Assembly (NCBI GenBank): GCA_017390475.1
Contig: JAFPBO010000030.1
Coordinates: forward strand, 62,001-126,000
DNA from: Loktanella sp.
Lineage (GTDB): Bacteria > Pseudomonadota > Alphaproteobacteria > Rhodobacterales > Rhodobacteraceae
Length of the DNA stretch: 64,000 bases
Direction: 5' to 3'
The notes beneath the pieces were generated by a model. It saw nothing but the letters and a program-made list of their open reading frames with translations, was not told the DNA's origin and made no database searches. The first letter of the stretch is position 1. The number at the start of each line of letters is the position of its first letter. Both the position numbers and the translations under genes were made by a program. Below are positions 17,901-23,231 of this stretch, one piece after another.

Positions 17901-18341
17901 TCACGAACGCAATATTTTCTCCAGCTCCGCCTTTTCATGGTCCGACAACGCCTCTGGCGCGGGGGCGCGCCTGCGGATCGTGGCCCAGCCGATGCCAAGC
18001 GCGATGATCAGCATCGCTGGGGCGGCATACCACAGGATCACATTGACCCCGCTGGTATCAGGTCGCAGCAGGACGAATTCGCCATAGCGCGCGACAAGAA
18101 AATCCACCGCTTGTTGGTCGGTGTCACCATCGACCAGCCGTTCGCGCAGAAGAATGCGCAATTCGCGCGCCAGTTCGGCATTGGATTCGTCGATGCTTTC
18201 GTTCCGGCAGACCGGGCAGCGCAGGCCTTGCGACAATTCCCGCGCGCGCTGTTCCAGCGCCGGGTCATCCAGAATTTCATCCGGCTGCACCGCAAAGGCC
18301 GATGAGGCGACCAGCAGGAAAATGGCGACAAGCCGGATCAT
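17901..18341 (-). CDS. ccmH: cytochrome c maturation protein CcmH
   Basis: A 146-residue membrane-anchored thiol oxidoreductase that reduces apocytochrome c before haem ligation. It has an N-terminal signal or anchor helix (about 1-18), the active site LRCPVCRNESI (Cys42 and Cys45) and a C-terminal membrane helix near 105-125, as in CcmH/CycL proteins. The CcmI-like TPR part of the E. coli protein is absent, as is usual in alphaproteobacteria. The start overlaps the ccmF stop by four bases. Confidence 0.95.
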   Translation of the reverse strand: MIRLVAIFLLVASSAFAVQPDEILDDPALEQRARELSQGLRCPVCRNESIDESNAELARELRILLRERLVDGDTDQQAVDFLVARYGEFVLLRPDTSGVNVILWYAAPAMLIIALGIGWATIRRRAPAPEALSDHEKAELEKILRS

Positions 18342-20314
18342 TCCGCAGGCACCGCAGGCGCGCGCACCGGTTTGGCCGAGGCCGCACCAACCCGCAACCG
18401 CCGGTCAGACAGTGACAGACAGCCGCCCAGGGCCATCAAGATACAGCCGCCCCAGATCCAGTTGGCGAAAGGCTTGTCATAGGTCCGCACAGCCCAGCCG
18501 CCCTGCACCTGCGGATCGCCGATCACGACATAGACGTCGCGGATGAAACCATTGCTGATCGCCGCCTCTGTCGTGGGCATATTGGCAACCGGATAGAACC
18601 GTTTTTCCGGTTGCAAGGTGTAAAGTTCGCGGTCACCGCGCCAGATCGACATATCGGCCATGGTGGTGACGTAATTCGGTCCTTGTAGCTGGTTCACAGC
18701 GTCAAGCTGCACCGAAAACGCGCCCATATCCCAGCGGTCGCCGATATCGGCGATGCGGATATCCTCTTTTTCCCAGGCCAGCATCGCGGCGATGGCAAAG
18801 ACGGTAACACCCATACCCATATGCGCCACGGCCTTGCCCCAATCGGCGCGCGGCAGGTTGCGCAGCCGCCGCAGCCTGCTGCGCAGATCATCGCGCCCCG
18901 CCCGCAGCCACAGATCGGCAAACGCCCCACCGACGACCCAGACGCCCAGGGCAACGCCAATCGGGCCGAGCGCGGAATTGCCGCTTTGGATCGCATAGGC
19001 CAAGGCGGCCAAGGCCACGGCCAGCACCAGCCAGCCTGCCATCGCCTTTGTCATCCGGTCGAAAGAGCCGCGTTTCCATGCCAACATTGACCCCAGCGGC
19101 AGTGCAATCGCCAGCGCCACCATGAAGGGGGTGAAAGCCGCATCAAAGAAGGGCGGCCCGACCGACAGGGTACGGTCAAACAGCATTTCGGTGACCAAGG
19201 GCCACATCGTGCCGATGAAGACCACAAAACAGGCAACAGCCAGCAGGATATTGTTCAGCACCAGCGCGCTTTCGCGGCTGACCGTCGAAAACACGCCCTG
19301 TGCCTGCATCGCCGAGGCGCGGAAGGCATAGAGCGTCAGCGACCCGCCCACGAAAAAGCCCATGATCATCAACAGCAGCATGCCGCGTTCGGGGTCCACC
19401 GCGAAAGCATGGACCGAGGTCAGCACGCCGGAACGGACGATAAAGGCACCCAGCAATGAGAAACCAAAGGCAAGGATGGCGAGCAGGATAGTCCAGCTTT
19501 TCAAAGCCTCGCGTTTTTCCACCACGACGGCGGAATGCAACAGGGCAGTGGCGATCAGCCATGGCATGAAGCTGGCGTTTTCGACCGGGTCCCAGAACCA
19601 GAATCCGCCCCAGCCCAGTTCATAATAGGCCCACCATGACCCCAACGCGATGCCCACGGTCAGGAACATCCATGCAGCAAGGGTCCATGGCCGGACCCAG
19701 CGGCCCCATGCGGCATCGACCCGCCCTTCGATCAGGGCGGCGACAGCAAAGGAAAACGCCATGCTGAGCCCGACATAACCGAGGTAAAGGAAAGGTGGGT
19801 GAAAGGCGAGGCCCGGGTCCTGCAACAGCGGGTTCAGGTCGCGCCCGTTCAGCGGTGGCAGTTCCAGCCGCAGAAACGGGTTTGAGGTAAAGATGATGAA
19901 GGCCAGAAAGGCCACGCAGATCGAGGATTGCACGGCCAGTACCCGCGCACGCAGCCGCATCGGCAGATTGCCCCCGAACCACCCGGCGCAGGCGCCGAAC
20001 AGCGTCAGGATCAGGATCCAGAGCAGCATCGAGCCTTCGTGATTGCCCCAGACGCCGGTGATTTTATAGATCATCGGCTTGTCGGTATGGGAATTCATGA
20101 ACACCAGCTGCAGCGAGAAATCCGACACCACAAAGGCCCAGGTCAATGCGGCAAAGGAAAACCCGACCAGCAGAAACTGGATCGTTGCGGCGGGTTCGCC
20201 CACCGCCATCCAGGCGGCATTGCCCCGATGTGCCCCGATCAGGGGCACGATCATCTGTATGATGGCCACGCCAAGGGCCAGAATCAAAGCGAAATGCGCG
20301 AGTTCATTTAACAT
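18338..20314 (-). CDS. ccmF: haem lyase subunit CcmF
   Basis: A polytopic inner-membrane protein of 658 residues that ligates haem, received from CcmE, to apocytochrome c. The WWD domain is seen as WGGFWFWDPVENASFMPW at about 235-252, with conserved His-containing segments GVWGNHEGSM (87-96) and HPPFLYLGY (172-180). The start at 20314 gives a normal family length. The gene lies 74 bases after the XhlA-like gene of the lysis cassette and is translationally coupled to ccmH. CcmA, B, C, D and G are not in the window. Confidence 0.95.
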   Translation of the reverse strand: MLNELAHFALILALGVAIIQMIVPLIGAHRGNAAWMAVGEPAATIQFLLVGFSFAALTWAFVVSDFSLQLVFMNSHTDKPMIYKITGVWGNHEGSMLLWILILTLFGACAGWFGGNLPMRLRARVLAVQSSICVAFLAFIIFTSNPFLRLELPPLNGRDLNPLLQDPGLAFHPPFLYLGYVGLSMAFSFAVAALIEGRVDAAWGRWVRPWTLAAWMFLTVGIALGSWWAYYELGWGGFWFWDPVENASFMPWLIATALLHSAVVVEKREALKSWTILLAILAFGFSLLGAFIVRSGVLTSVHAFAVDPERGMLLLMIMGFFVGGSLTLYAFRASAMQAQGVFSTVSRESALVLNNILLAVACFVVFIGTMWPLVTEMLFDRTLSVGPPFFDAAFTPFMVALAIALPLGSMLAWKRGSFDRMTKAMAGWLVLAVALAALAYAIQSGNSALGPIGVALGVWVVGGAFADLWLRAGRDDLRSRLRRLRNLPRADWGKAVAHMGMGVTVFAIAAMLAWEKEDIRIADIGDRWDMGAFSVQLDAVNQLQGPNYVTTMADMSIWRGDRELYTLQPEKRFYPVANMPTTEAAISNGFIRDVYVVIGDPQVQGGWAVRTYDKPFANWIWGGCILMALGGCLSLSDRRLRVGAASAKPVRAPAVPAE

Positions 20315-20388: not shown

Positions 20389-20592
20389 TCACAGCGTCAA
20401 CCCGCCCTGCACTGCATAGCTGACGGCCGCCATCAGCATGCCGCCGATGATCAGCCGGACCAGCCATTTGAGCGTATCCTCGATCGCGCCCAGTCTGGTT
20501 GCGACATTGTCGCGATGCACGGAATCCACCGCGTTGCGGGTTTCCAGCGCGCGCAGCCGTCCGTCAAAACTGTCGGTCATGCTATTGTCCAT
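20389..20592 (-). CDS. small XhlA-like lysis-associated membrane protein
   Basis: A protein of 67 residues (63 if translation starts at the second ATG, 20580). It has an amphipathic helical part (DGRLRALETRNAVDSVHRDN.., GAIEDTLKWL) followed by a single membrane helix, LVRLIIGGMLMAAVSYAVQG. This is the layout of XhlA/haemolysin-XhlA family proteins, which work with phage holins at the cytoplasmic membrane. It overlaps the end of the holin gene by 11 bases from the first ATG, which has an AGG-type ribosome site, or follows it by one base from the second. It is the third gene of a compact lysis cassette. Confidence 0.7.
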   Translation of the reverse strand: MDNSMTDSFDGRLRALETRNAVDSVHRDNVATRLGAIEDTLKWLVRLIIGGMLMAAVSYAVQGGLTL

Positions 20593-21091
20593 GCGACACC
20601 TGCCATTCCTGCAAGGCGGGGTTGCCATTGGGTGGCAATCCCGGGTCCTGTTGCGGTTTTCGGCTGGCCGTAGTGGCGGCGTTAGCGGCCAGAATGCGCT
20701 GGAAATCCTGTTCCTTGGCCTGATGCCGCGCGCCGAAATAGAAACTGACAATCGCCCCCATCAACCACCAGAGCGGTTCCGGCACCAGGGCCAGCCCATT
20801 CATCCCGGCGGCGAAACTGTCAGGGTCCAGCATCGCCATGATGAAAAGCCAGATCGTCCCCAGCGCCAGCATCGGCCTTGGCAGCCGGTTCAGCGCATCG
20901 ACCAGCCGGTCGAACAGCCCTTGGCGCGCATGGGCAAATTCGGCGGCGAATTGTTGCAGGCTTTCGCTTTTGGCATCGGCGTCGCGCGTCGCGGCATTCT
21001 CGGCATTGGGGCGAAAGACCTGCGCGGTTTCGACCAGCACATTGCGGCTGTTGCCGAACAGAAACCCCATCAATCCTGTGATCAAGCCCAT
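20582..21091 (-). CDS. holin, gene-transfer-agent 3TM type
   Basis: A 169-residue membrane protein with hydrophobic segments at the N-terminus (GLITGLMGFLFG), near 74-90 (MLALGTIWLFIMAMLD) and near 107-122 (LWWLMGAIVSFYFGAR). The order and the FGNSRN...RPNAENAATRDADAK stretch fit the GTA_holin_3TM family. In Rhodobacter capsulatus a holin of this kind releases gene transfer agent particles together with the endolysin. The start lies within the last ten bases of the endolysin gene. The C-terminal tail is polar and cytoplasmic in the expected topology. Confidence 0.8.
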   Translation of the reverse strand: MGLITGLMGFLFGNSRNVLVETAQVFRPNAENAATRDADAKSESLQQFAAEFAHARQGLFDRLVDALNRLPRPMLALGTIWLFIMAMLDPDSFAAGMNGLALVPEPLWWLMGAIVSFYFGARHQAKEQDFQRILAANAATTASRKPQQDPGLPPNGNPALQEWQVSHGQ

Positions 21092-21693
21092 GACGCGGTC
21101 CTTTGCTGATGTTGTGCCGGGGTCAGGTGATAGCGCGGGGCGATGAATTCCTCGGCCCTTGTGATCCAGCCGCCTTTGCCGCCATCGCGCCTGCGGGCAT
21201 ATTTGCGGCTGGCGGGCCTGCGGTCGGCAAGATCATAGTAATAATTGCGCCGCGCGATGCCGTAGGCATCGGCCAGATGGTCGGGCGCGGCCTCTGCGGC
21301 GCGGTTGGCGGCGGCAATGGTCTGCGGGCCGATGACGCCATCGGTGCTGACATTGATCCGCATCTCGACCAGCAGGCGTTGCAGGATGCGCACCGCATTG
21401 GCCCCGGCGTTGACATACATGTCAAACACGCTGGGCTGGATGAGCTGCGGCAGGCGGTTGACACCGGGTTTGACGAAGTAATGGTCGATGAATATCTGCA
21501 CCGCCTGCGCGCGGTCCAATTGCTGCACATCCTGCGCATCGACCCGGCCATCGCCGTTCAGATCAAGGCCGAGGCGGCGCATGGTATGGATCGTGACGCC
21601 ATGGTTGGTCGCCCCGCCGGGATCGTCGGGGTCGTTTACATAGCCGCCTTCGCGGGCAACGATGTCATTGGCGATTTTTGTGATATCTGGCAT
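21082..21693 (-). CDS. GH108 endolysin (N-acetylmuramidase)
   Basis: A 203-residue peptidoglycan hydrolase. The GH108 signature with the catalytic Glu is EGGYVNDPDDPGGATNHG (Glu15), followed by a region with a calcium-binding-like LDLNGDGRVDAQD loop and, at about 95-175, the conserved NAGANAVRILQ...DGVIGPQT part typical of the C-terminal peptidoglycan-binding segment of this family. There is no signal peptide, so it would need the adjacent holin to cross the membrane. It matches the type of endolysin that Rhodobacterales use for gene transfer agent release. It follows ccmE by 45 bases. Confidence 0.87.
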   Translation of the reverse strand: MPDITKIANDIVAREGGYVNDPDDPGGATNHGVTIHTMRRLGLDLNGDGRVDAQDVQQLDRAQAVQIFIDHYFVKPGVNRLPQLIQPSVFDMYVNAGANAVRILQRLLVEMRINVSTDGVIGPQTIAAANRAAEAAPDHLADAYGIARRNYYYDLADRRPASRKYARRRDGGKGGWITRAEEFIAPRYHLTPAQHQQRTASWA

Positions 21694-21738
21694 TTTCCTG
21701 TCCTCTGCTGCGGGAGAAAACAGGATAGAATAAAAAGG

Positions 21739-22206
21739 TTAATGCGAGATTCGAGCACCGTTCGGGTCTACATAGACACCCTGCGCCTTAAGTGCATCAA
21801 GCACCTCTGTCGGCATGTAGGTTTCGTCGTGTTTGGCAAGGATTTCAACGGCTTCGAACCTGCCGTTAATCAGATTCCCCTGTGCCACGACACCTTCGCC
21901 TTCGGAGAAAAGGTCAGGCAGAATGCCTGCATAGACGACAGGAATAGACGCACCGCCATCCGTGACGGCAAAGCTGATTTCCTGCCCCTGACCGCGCACC
22001 AATGTGCCCGCCTCGACCAGACCGCCAAGGCGGAACCGTTCATTCGGCATTGGCGGCGCTTCTGCCACTTCGGATGGCGAGCGGAAGAATTGGAAACTGT
22101 CGGCAGGCAGGAACCACAGCAGCACCAGCACCAGCGCCACGCAGGCACCGGCGATGGAAATCACCTGCACGCGGCGGCGTTTCTTGAGGCTTTTCAGACC
22201 GCTCAT
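21739..22206 (-). CDS. ccmE: haem chaperone CcmE
   Basis: A 155-residue periplasmic haem chaperone with an N-terminal membrane anchor (about 14-33) and an OB-fold domain. The covalent haem attachment site [10 protein letters not shown] holds His126 and Tyr130. It takes haem from the CcmABCD complex and passes it to CcmF. The start overlaps the end of argC by four bases, so the gene is in one transcription unit with argC. The lysis cassette lies between ccmE and ccmF, which are usually adjacent. Confidence 0.95.
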
Positions 22207-23231
22207 GGGAAGACAGGCACCAGCATCAGACCCTCTGTTTCGTTCAGACCCAGCATCAGGTTGGCGTTTTGCAACGCTTGCCCCGATGATCCCTTACATA
22301 GGTTGTCGAGGGTAGACACGACAAGGGCGCGGCCTGAAATGCGGTCCGATGTCACGCCGATATGACAGAAGTTTGACCCCATGACATGGCCGGTGCCGGG
22401 CATTTGCCCGAAAGGCAGGACATGGATGAAAGGTTCATCGGCATAGGCAGCGGTCAGGGCGGCATGGATCGCTGTCGCATCACCGCGCAGATAGCAGGAC
22501 GCAAGGATGCCCCGGCTGACGGGAACCAGATGCGGGGCGAACTGGATTTCGACCTTGCGACCGGCGAGGGCGCTGAATTCCTGATCGAATTCGCCCAGAT
22601 GCCGGTGCTTGCCGCCTTGGGCATAGCCCTGCACATCGGTCGCGCGTTCGGTGAACAGCATGTTTTCCTTCAGCGACCGCCCTGCCCCGGTGATGCCGTT
22701 TTTCAGATCGCAGATGATGTCGTCAAGGTCGATCAGGTCGGCGCTGATCAGCGGCCGCAGCGCGAATTGCACGGTGGCGGCGTTGCAGCCGGTGCCGGCG
22801 ACCAGCCGCGCGGATTTGATATCGTCGCGGTAGAATTCGGTCAGGCCATAGACAGCGGTTTTCTGCAATTCCGGGGCGACATGGGGCGCGCCATACCATT
22901 TTTGATATTCCGCAGGATCACGTAGCCGGAAATCAGCGCCCAGATCGACGACTTTTACCGTTTCCGGCAGATCGCGGACAAGTGCCTGCGACAGGCCATG
23001 CGGCAAGGCGGCGAAGACGAGGTCGATGGTGGAAAAGTCGATTTCATCCACCTTGACCAATGTCGGCAGGTTCAGGTGGCGCAGATGCGGAAAGACTTCG
23101 GCCATCTGCTGGCCTGCCTTGCGGTCGGCGGACAGGGCAGCGATGCGCAGCTGCGGATGGGTCGCGATCAGCCGGATCAATTCAGCACCGGTATAGCCGG
23201 ATGCGCCCAGAATGGCGATGTTATAGGTCAT
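22203..23231 (-). CDS. argC: N-acetyl-gamma-glutamyl-phosphate reductase
   Basis: The third enzyme of arginine synthesis, 342 residues, reducing N-acetylglutamyl phosphate to the semialdehyde with NADPH. The nucleotide-binding loop [10 protein letters not shown] is at about 9-18 and the catalytic Cys149 is in [11 protein letters not shown]. Length and motifs are standard for the type 1 enzyme. It is the first gene of an apparent argC-ccmE-lysis-ccmF-ccmH unit; murI ends ten bases upstream on the same strand, so the unit may begin still further upstream. Confidence 0.96.

Follow-up and report, generated by a model that had tools for sequence, protein, structure and literature searches.

The minus strand of the 64,000-nucleotide stretch of Loktanella sp. 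DNA analysed here (the window, in whose positions the features below are given) carries a row of seven genes with short gaps between them, in which two genes for cell lysis and a small accessory ORF stand in the midst of genes for housekeeping functions. In the order in which they would be transcribed, the features are:

22203..23231, minus strand: argC-like gene of the semialdehyde dehydrogenase family, upstream neighbour of ccmE (PF22698/PF01118; the name argC is presumptive)
21739..22206, minus strand: ccmE, heme chaperone of cytochrome c maturation (PF03100, 107.9 bits)
21738..21764, minus strand: promoter element CGAACG-N16-TTAAC (putative GafA element plus putative CtrA half-site), an exact match overlapping the end of ccmE
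21696..21725, minus strand: predicted leader hairpin of 11 bp, with its 3' arm over the endolysin Shine-Dalgarno region (RNA folding of the leader)
21082..21693, minus strand: endolysin of 203 aa, GH108 plus PG_binding_3 (NF040573, PF05838/PF09374)
20582..21091, minus strand: 3TM holin of 169 aa (PF11351, 93.7 bits)
20389..20592, minus strand: XhlA-like small protein of 67 aa, optional third gene (PF10779, 31.7 bits; phrog_1193, 4.2e-9)
18338..20314, minus strand: ccmF, start set at MLNELAHF (PF16327/PF01578)
17901..18341, minus strand: ccmH-like ORF (same-order homologues in other loci)

The last of these we take to be ccmH-like by eye, from its sequence and position. The ORF listing bears out the first-pass annotation as to the coordinates of the lysis trio and its site between ccmE and ccmF, and the genes do overlap as that annotation had described: endolysin and holin share 10 nt here, and likewise in 68 of 69 loci of relatives.

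The family assignments proposed earlier, a GH108 endolysin, a 3TM holin and an XhlA-like protein, have been confirmed by profile scores over the cut-offs for the first two and have fallen short for the third. The endolysin matches the Pfam profiles PF05838 (88.4 bits) and PF09374 (79 bits) and, with 367 bits against a cut-off of 240, the NCBIfam family NF040573 of holin-associated N-acetylmuramidases. Residue E15 is the same in all 14 sequences of an alignment. The endolysin is matched by six distinct sequences of proteins with solved structures, including 2nr7 and 2ikb, and its nearest named records come from Loktanella sp. (85% identity) and Yoonia vestfoldensis (81%). It is the single GH108 match in the whole 4.13 Mb genome (56 contigs). 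The holin exceeds the cut-off of its profile, GTA_holin_3TM, by a wide margin (93.7 against 24.8 bits), and a search of it against the phage record collection gave no match at E 0.01. The PF10779 (XhlA) score of the third ORF lies below the curated cut-off of 34.7 bits, and the label is therefore mere resemblance; the ORF also matches phrog_1193, described as 'hemolysin'. Such a gene has been found in only 9 of 69 loci and in 17 of the 80 named loci, which rules out XhlA as a general third part of the cassette and makes it an optional, lineage-specific one. At the same spot after the holin, three loci from other genera (L043, L058 and L097, of g14, g11 and g76) carry no XhlA-like gene and have a different small protein of the HGPWVLLVFYLLYRDLQKDQ type, an unrelated-looking second accessory.

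The first-pass annotation had favoured a phage or gene transfer agent (GTA) origin and had proposed to search the rest of the genome for GTA structural genes. These have indeed been found, on contig C42, where profile searches detect portal, protease, capsid, head-tail connector, distal tail, hub and NlpC/P60 proteins, together with an RcGTA tape measure (333 bits, cut-off 220) and a megatron protein (1818 bits, cut-off 800); a terminase-like protein gives a weak match below its cut-off. A candidate for the regulator GafA has been located through the only TTAAC-N6-GTAAC site (a CtrA site) of the genome, which lies 85 nt upstream of the candidate gene. The protein shows DUF6456 and weak HTH matches; the DnaA-C profile, tried as a GafA finder, matched one protein strongly, presumably DnaA itself, and two others no better than chance. 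Two genes near the candidate, recognised by eye from their protein starts, are presumably lipA and guaA. These two are the neighbours of gafA named in PMC6363796. A DUF6477 gene (L376:1560-1949) lies divergently beside the candidate and may, by resemblance of position only, correspond to rcc01866. As the genome has a structural cluster of the RcGTA type together with a GafA candidate, and no GH108 gene besides this one, the cassette is to be placed with the RcGTA type, that of rcc00555 and rcc00556.

The gene order at ccmE-ccmF has been compared across relatives, as the annotation had also suggested, in an order-level sample of 196 genomes, all Rhodobacteraceae by family code and spanning 87 genera. 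The NF040573 endolysin is present in 190 of them, CcmE in 195 and GTA_TIM in 187. Among the 111 genomes that could be scored, being those with both endolysin and CcmE rows among the matches listed, 95, from 47 genera, have the endolysin gene on the ccmE strand within 1 kb downstream of ccmE, and the other 16 do not. In a set of 69 loci from 64 genera, which is not a random sample and includes 13 loci without adjoining ccmE and 8 genomes without a GTA_TIM match, ccmF has been detected in 53. Of the 80 named loci, 73 carry a ccmE label; the domain labels of the named, viral, endolysin-less and g36 loci come from an overlap filter that loses some endolysin and holin labels. The order ccmE-lysis genes-ccmF is widely conserved, and since it recurs in many genera the arrangement is not a matter of chance. 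What had been described as an unusual local insertion turns out to be a general feature of the family sample. The endolysin is absent from six of the 196 genomes, and the ccmE region of four has been compared: argC, ccmE, ccmF and ccmH are directly joined in two (L106, L107), one has no ccmF close to ccmE (L104), and in one ccmE and ccmF stand apart (L105). In genus g36 (L168, L169), some 5-6 kb separate an endolysin-ccmF-ccmH block from the GTA terminase, which makes ccm genes, lysis genes and GTA cluster neighbours there. Searches of open-licence full texts have shown no statement on the ccm location of the cassette, and we claim no priority for it.

The annotation had further reasoned that lysis would be placed under the promoter of cytochrome c maturation unless an internal promoter existed. 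Of 70 sequences, 54 have a TTAAC 38-65 nt upstream of the endolysin start, compared with a shuffle mean of 1.6 (maximum 5), and further upstream CGNACG occurs in 40 of 70 (shuffle mean 5.2, maximum 11), with shuffles that ignore kinship. The two motifs keep a fixed spacing: CGNACG-N16-TTAAC is present exactly in 32 of the 70 sequences of the genus-spread set and in 33 of the 80 named genomes, and with at most one mismatch in 52 and 59 of these host loci, respectively. No locus of the three sets (70 and 80 host, 80 viral) contains the reversed pattern. An explanation of the element as a by-product of ccmE coding has been rejected, because it is exact in 13 of the 32 loci in which it lies wholly outside the ccmE codons (21 of 32 with at most one mismatch). 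In the Loktanella genome the exact element occurs twice, against 18 occurrences of the reversed pattern. The second copy (L179, C9:185742-185768) is followed after about 50 nt by a tail-fibre-like DUF2793 gene, which we take to be of the kind of the rcc00171 tail fibre. In 30 DUF2793 loci of other genomes, some of which may belong to other phage elements, the element is exact in none and present with at most one mismatch in five, 143-170 nt before the domain; the reversed pattern is again absent. Of 41 GTA clusters themselves, 26 have CGNACG 335-410 nt upstream of the terminase, compared with a mean of 5.5 (maximum 9) in shuffles that again ignore kinship and with 3-7 occurrences in four other stretches of equal length; it is absent at this usual place in the g1 promoter of Loktanella's own GTA.

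For Rhodobacter capsulatus, PMC6363796 reports binding of GafA to the promoter of the lysis cassette and CtrA-dependent transcription of the endolysin, so that an internal promoter is known in principle. Putative CtrA half-sites at late GTA loci, and putative GafA sites at two out of three, have been described in PMC9638019. We infer that CGNACG is the GafA element; accepted as such, the cassette carries a promoter with putative GafA and CtrA signals in a genome that also holds a GafA candidate. A conserved CAGNCT after TTAAC may be the -10 box, although in some leaders it is also part of the 5' arm of the leader hairpin. Of the two ways of transcribing the cassette that had been considered, the internal promoter is the one that gains, with a conserved GTA-type element upstream of the endolysin in addition to the published GafA binding. 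New here is the conserved geometry of the promoter at the ccmE-endolysin junction.

Relatives of the cassette also occur on viral contigs, and one might therefore regard it as part of a recent or active prophage that has landed in the ccm locus. The 80 IMG/VR loci (L291-L370, near-duplicates included) hold endolysins 58-70% identical to that of Loktanella, with a holin label in 72, and in a tree host and viral endolysins are not cleanly separated (35 of 79 inner branches unresolved; p-AU 0.121 for one host clade). The immediate neighbours of the cassette, however, are the argC-like gene, ccmE and ccmF, among which a scan has found no phage structural or integration genes, and the same place is occupied in 47 genera. 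Moreover, none of the 80 viral loci has CGNACG-N16-TTAAC, not even with one mismatch allowed, the genome has its single GH108 match in the cassette, and the GTA cluster lies elsewhere. A prophage at the ccm site is ruled out by the housekeeping neighbours and the conserved place, and for the wider prophage reading we see hardly any room. The cassette is very probably the lysis module of an RcGTA-type gene transfer agent, a guest in the row argC-ccmE-ccmF-ccmH; the GTA cluster on C42, the conserved ccm place and the conserved promoter element all support the GTA side of the original proposal.

How a lethal cassette could be carried in such a row is suggested by the leader of the endolysin gene. 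More stable folds than in shuffled sequences are predicted for the 36 nt that precede the endolysin start (mean z -1.78, n=70, and -2.13, n=80, with z < -2 in 32 and 39), compared with mean values of -0.26 and -0.25 for the adjacent upstream segment (z < -2 in 3 and 3). Viral leaders behave similarly, with a mean z of -1.54 and 22 of 58 below -2 (upstream segment -0.59, 9 of 58). In the read-through RNA, the predicted probability that the Shine-Dalgarno sequence is unpaired averages 0.24 (65 leaders), 0.23 (72) and 0.27 (59 viral), against 0.42-0.47 for the control genes ccmE, ccmF, holin and argC of the same loci. If the RNA is cut at -23, the endolysin value rises from 0.24 to 0.49, and the controls shift by at most 0.05. 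The distances of TTAAC and of the hairpin 5' arm to the start covary (Spearman 0.55, 108 leaders, uncorrected for kinship). For an assumed transcription start at TTAAC+27, the centre of the 5' arm is lost in 85 of 108 leaders; for one at TTAAC+7, in 4 of 108. A translational lock with a ribosome-binding site hidden in a long RNA has been reported for gene e of T4 (PMC3014915), and by folding prediction the endolysin ribosome-binding site is likewise buried in the read-through RNA, where the hairpin would block endolysin translation. This predicted burial beside the promoter is apparently new. Since the viral relatives share the leader structure, the lock may have been inherited from a phage ancestor and the promoter acquired in the host. 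Both could be parts of a switch by transcription start: RNA reading through from ccmE would hide the site, and RNA started by GafA and CtrA would begin inside the hairpin and free it, so that the lethal cassette is tolerated in a housekeeping operon. We put this switch forward tentatively and would give it somewhat less than even chances.

The same burial can be read in a plainer way, in which the lysis genes are merely co-transcribed with ccm and kept harmless by low translation, with TTAAC and CGNACG as remnants. The single strand and short gaps of all genes fit this as well. It is nevertheless very improbable, as the spacing of the element is fixed and strongly conserved in many genera, rcc00555 and rcc00556 fall into the GTA module by co-expression in R. 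capsulatus (PMC4158056), and GafA overexpression raises the endolysin transcript 6-fold there (PMC6363796). Under the preferred reading as a GTA lysis module, GafA and phosphorylated CtrA would, in the few GTA-producing cells, fire an internal promoter located between ccmE and the endolysin; the holin, with the XhlA-like partner in the Loktanella lineage, would open the inner membrane, the endolysin would cut the peptidoglycan, and the cell would burst. This sequence of events assumes, by analogy, that GafA binding, CtrA dependence and the role in release known from R. capsulatus apply to the Loktanella strain too.

Genomes without particle genes provide a view on what keeps the cassette in place. 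The RcGTA tape has been found in 171 of the 196 genomes and is missing in 25 (five by absence among the matches listed), of which 24 also lack the hub family. GTA_TIM matches are absent in 9 of these 24, weak in 12 (E 1e-40 to 1e-24) and strong in 3 (G020, G138, G145). All but two of the 24 (G110 and G145) have retained the endolysin, and endolysin and holin frames are open in all 22 of these. In one of them (L109, from G079), the endolysin is shortened to 189 aa and has an altered C-terminus. TTAAC is in place in 19 of the 22, compared with 17 of 22 GTA-positive comparators, and the element with at most one mismatch in 15 compared with 12, where one comparator counted as GTA-positive (G123) lacks the tape and keeps the hub. 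In eight pairs with both genomes tape-less, one including G123, endolysin dN/dS is 0.04-0.14, and holin dN/dS is saturated in four and 0.06-0.35 in the others, values that are to be read with synonymous sites near saturation. GafA has been found in 57 of 57 genomes searched, including all 24 without tape and hub, where gafA contains a stop in G002 and G020 and gives a partial match in G163, as if decay of the regulator had begun. Of the 101 genomes searched for DUF2793 genes, 14 are tape-less and 11 of these have them, as do 82 of the remaining 87. In trees of argC plus CcmE, a GTA-positive genome of genus g7 is nested among GTA-less ones, and in genus g21 the one GTA-less pair consists of G091 and G027; this suggests that the losses are mostly terminal, and therefore perhaps recent.

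The cassette is still there when the particle genes have gone, through either lag or function, and that most genomes lacking tape and hub retain the cassette, and all of them GafA, is apparently a new observation. Accordingly, GTA release may not be its sole reason to stay. One may go further and postulate that cassette and GafA form a lysis programme independent of GTA particles, e.g., a timed death by which kin are fed or DNA is released. The open frames, the promoter element, the low endolysin dN/dS and the ubiquity of GafA described above speak for such a programme. Yet the mostly terminal losses, the damaged gafA copies, the altered endolysin of G079 and the three genomes with a strong GTA_TIM match speak against it, and because DUF2793 genes are kept likewise, it would be enough to assume that the scattered GTA loci all decay slowly. 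We regard an independent programme as unlikely, though it is the most serious competitor of the GTA reading; the retained cassette and GafA do raise the question whether regulated lysis is useful in itself.

The cassette is a module of known type, and its position holds generally across the sampled genomes. At the ccmE-endolysin junction, the most promising part of the locus, a gene for respiratory-chain maturation overlaps at its end with GTA promoter signals and with a possible translational lock. The timing of the burst of a GTA producer becomes a question about this one short DNA stretch, and as the ccm place is widely fixed, many GTA producers of the Rhodobacteraceae can be compared at the same spot.

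Among known systems, the endolysin-holin pairs of IMG/VR contigs resemble the cassette in the endolysin sequence (58-70% identity), the holin and the structured leader over the ribosome-binding site, but differ from it in that no ccm neighbours have been found and the CGNACG-N16-TTAAC promoter is missing. The PBSX lysis module xhlA-xhlB-xlyA likewise combines a holin and a peptidoglycan hydrolase with a small neighbouring protein of the XhlA type; the XhlA similarity of the third ORF here stays below the Pfam cut-off. With the lysozyme gene e of T4 the cassette shares a lysis-gene ribosome-binding site predicted to be hidden in read-through RNA, here with promoter signals near the 5' arm; the setting differs, with early and late phage transcription there and a bacterial operon plus another promoter here. 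For the RcGTA lysis genes of R. capsulatus, disruption of rcc00555 has been reported to leave particles inside the cell (PMC3423380), and according to the same source the study reporting rcc00555/556 gave no direct evidence of lytic activity. Set against the published descriptions of R. capsulatus, the Loktanella lineage differs from that species by its XhlA-like third gene. It agrees with it in an endolysin (rcc00555) beside a holin (rcc00556), away from the structural cluster, in promoter signals of the GafA/CtrA type, and in a GTA cluster and a GafA candidate within the same genome.
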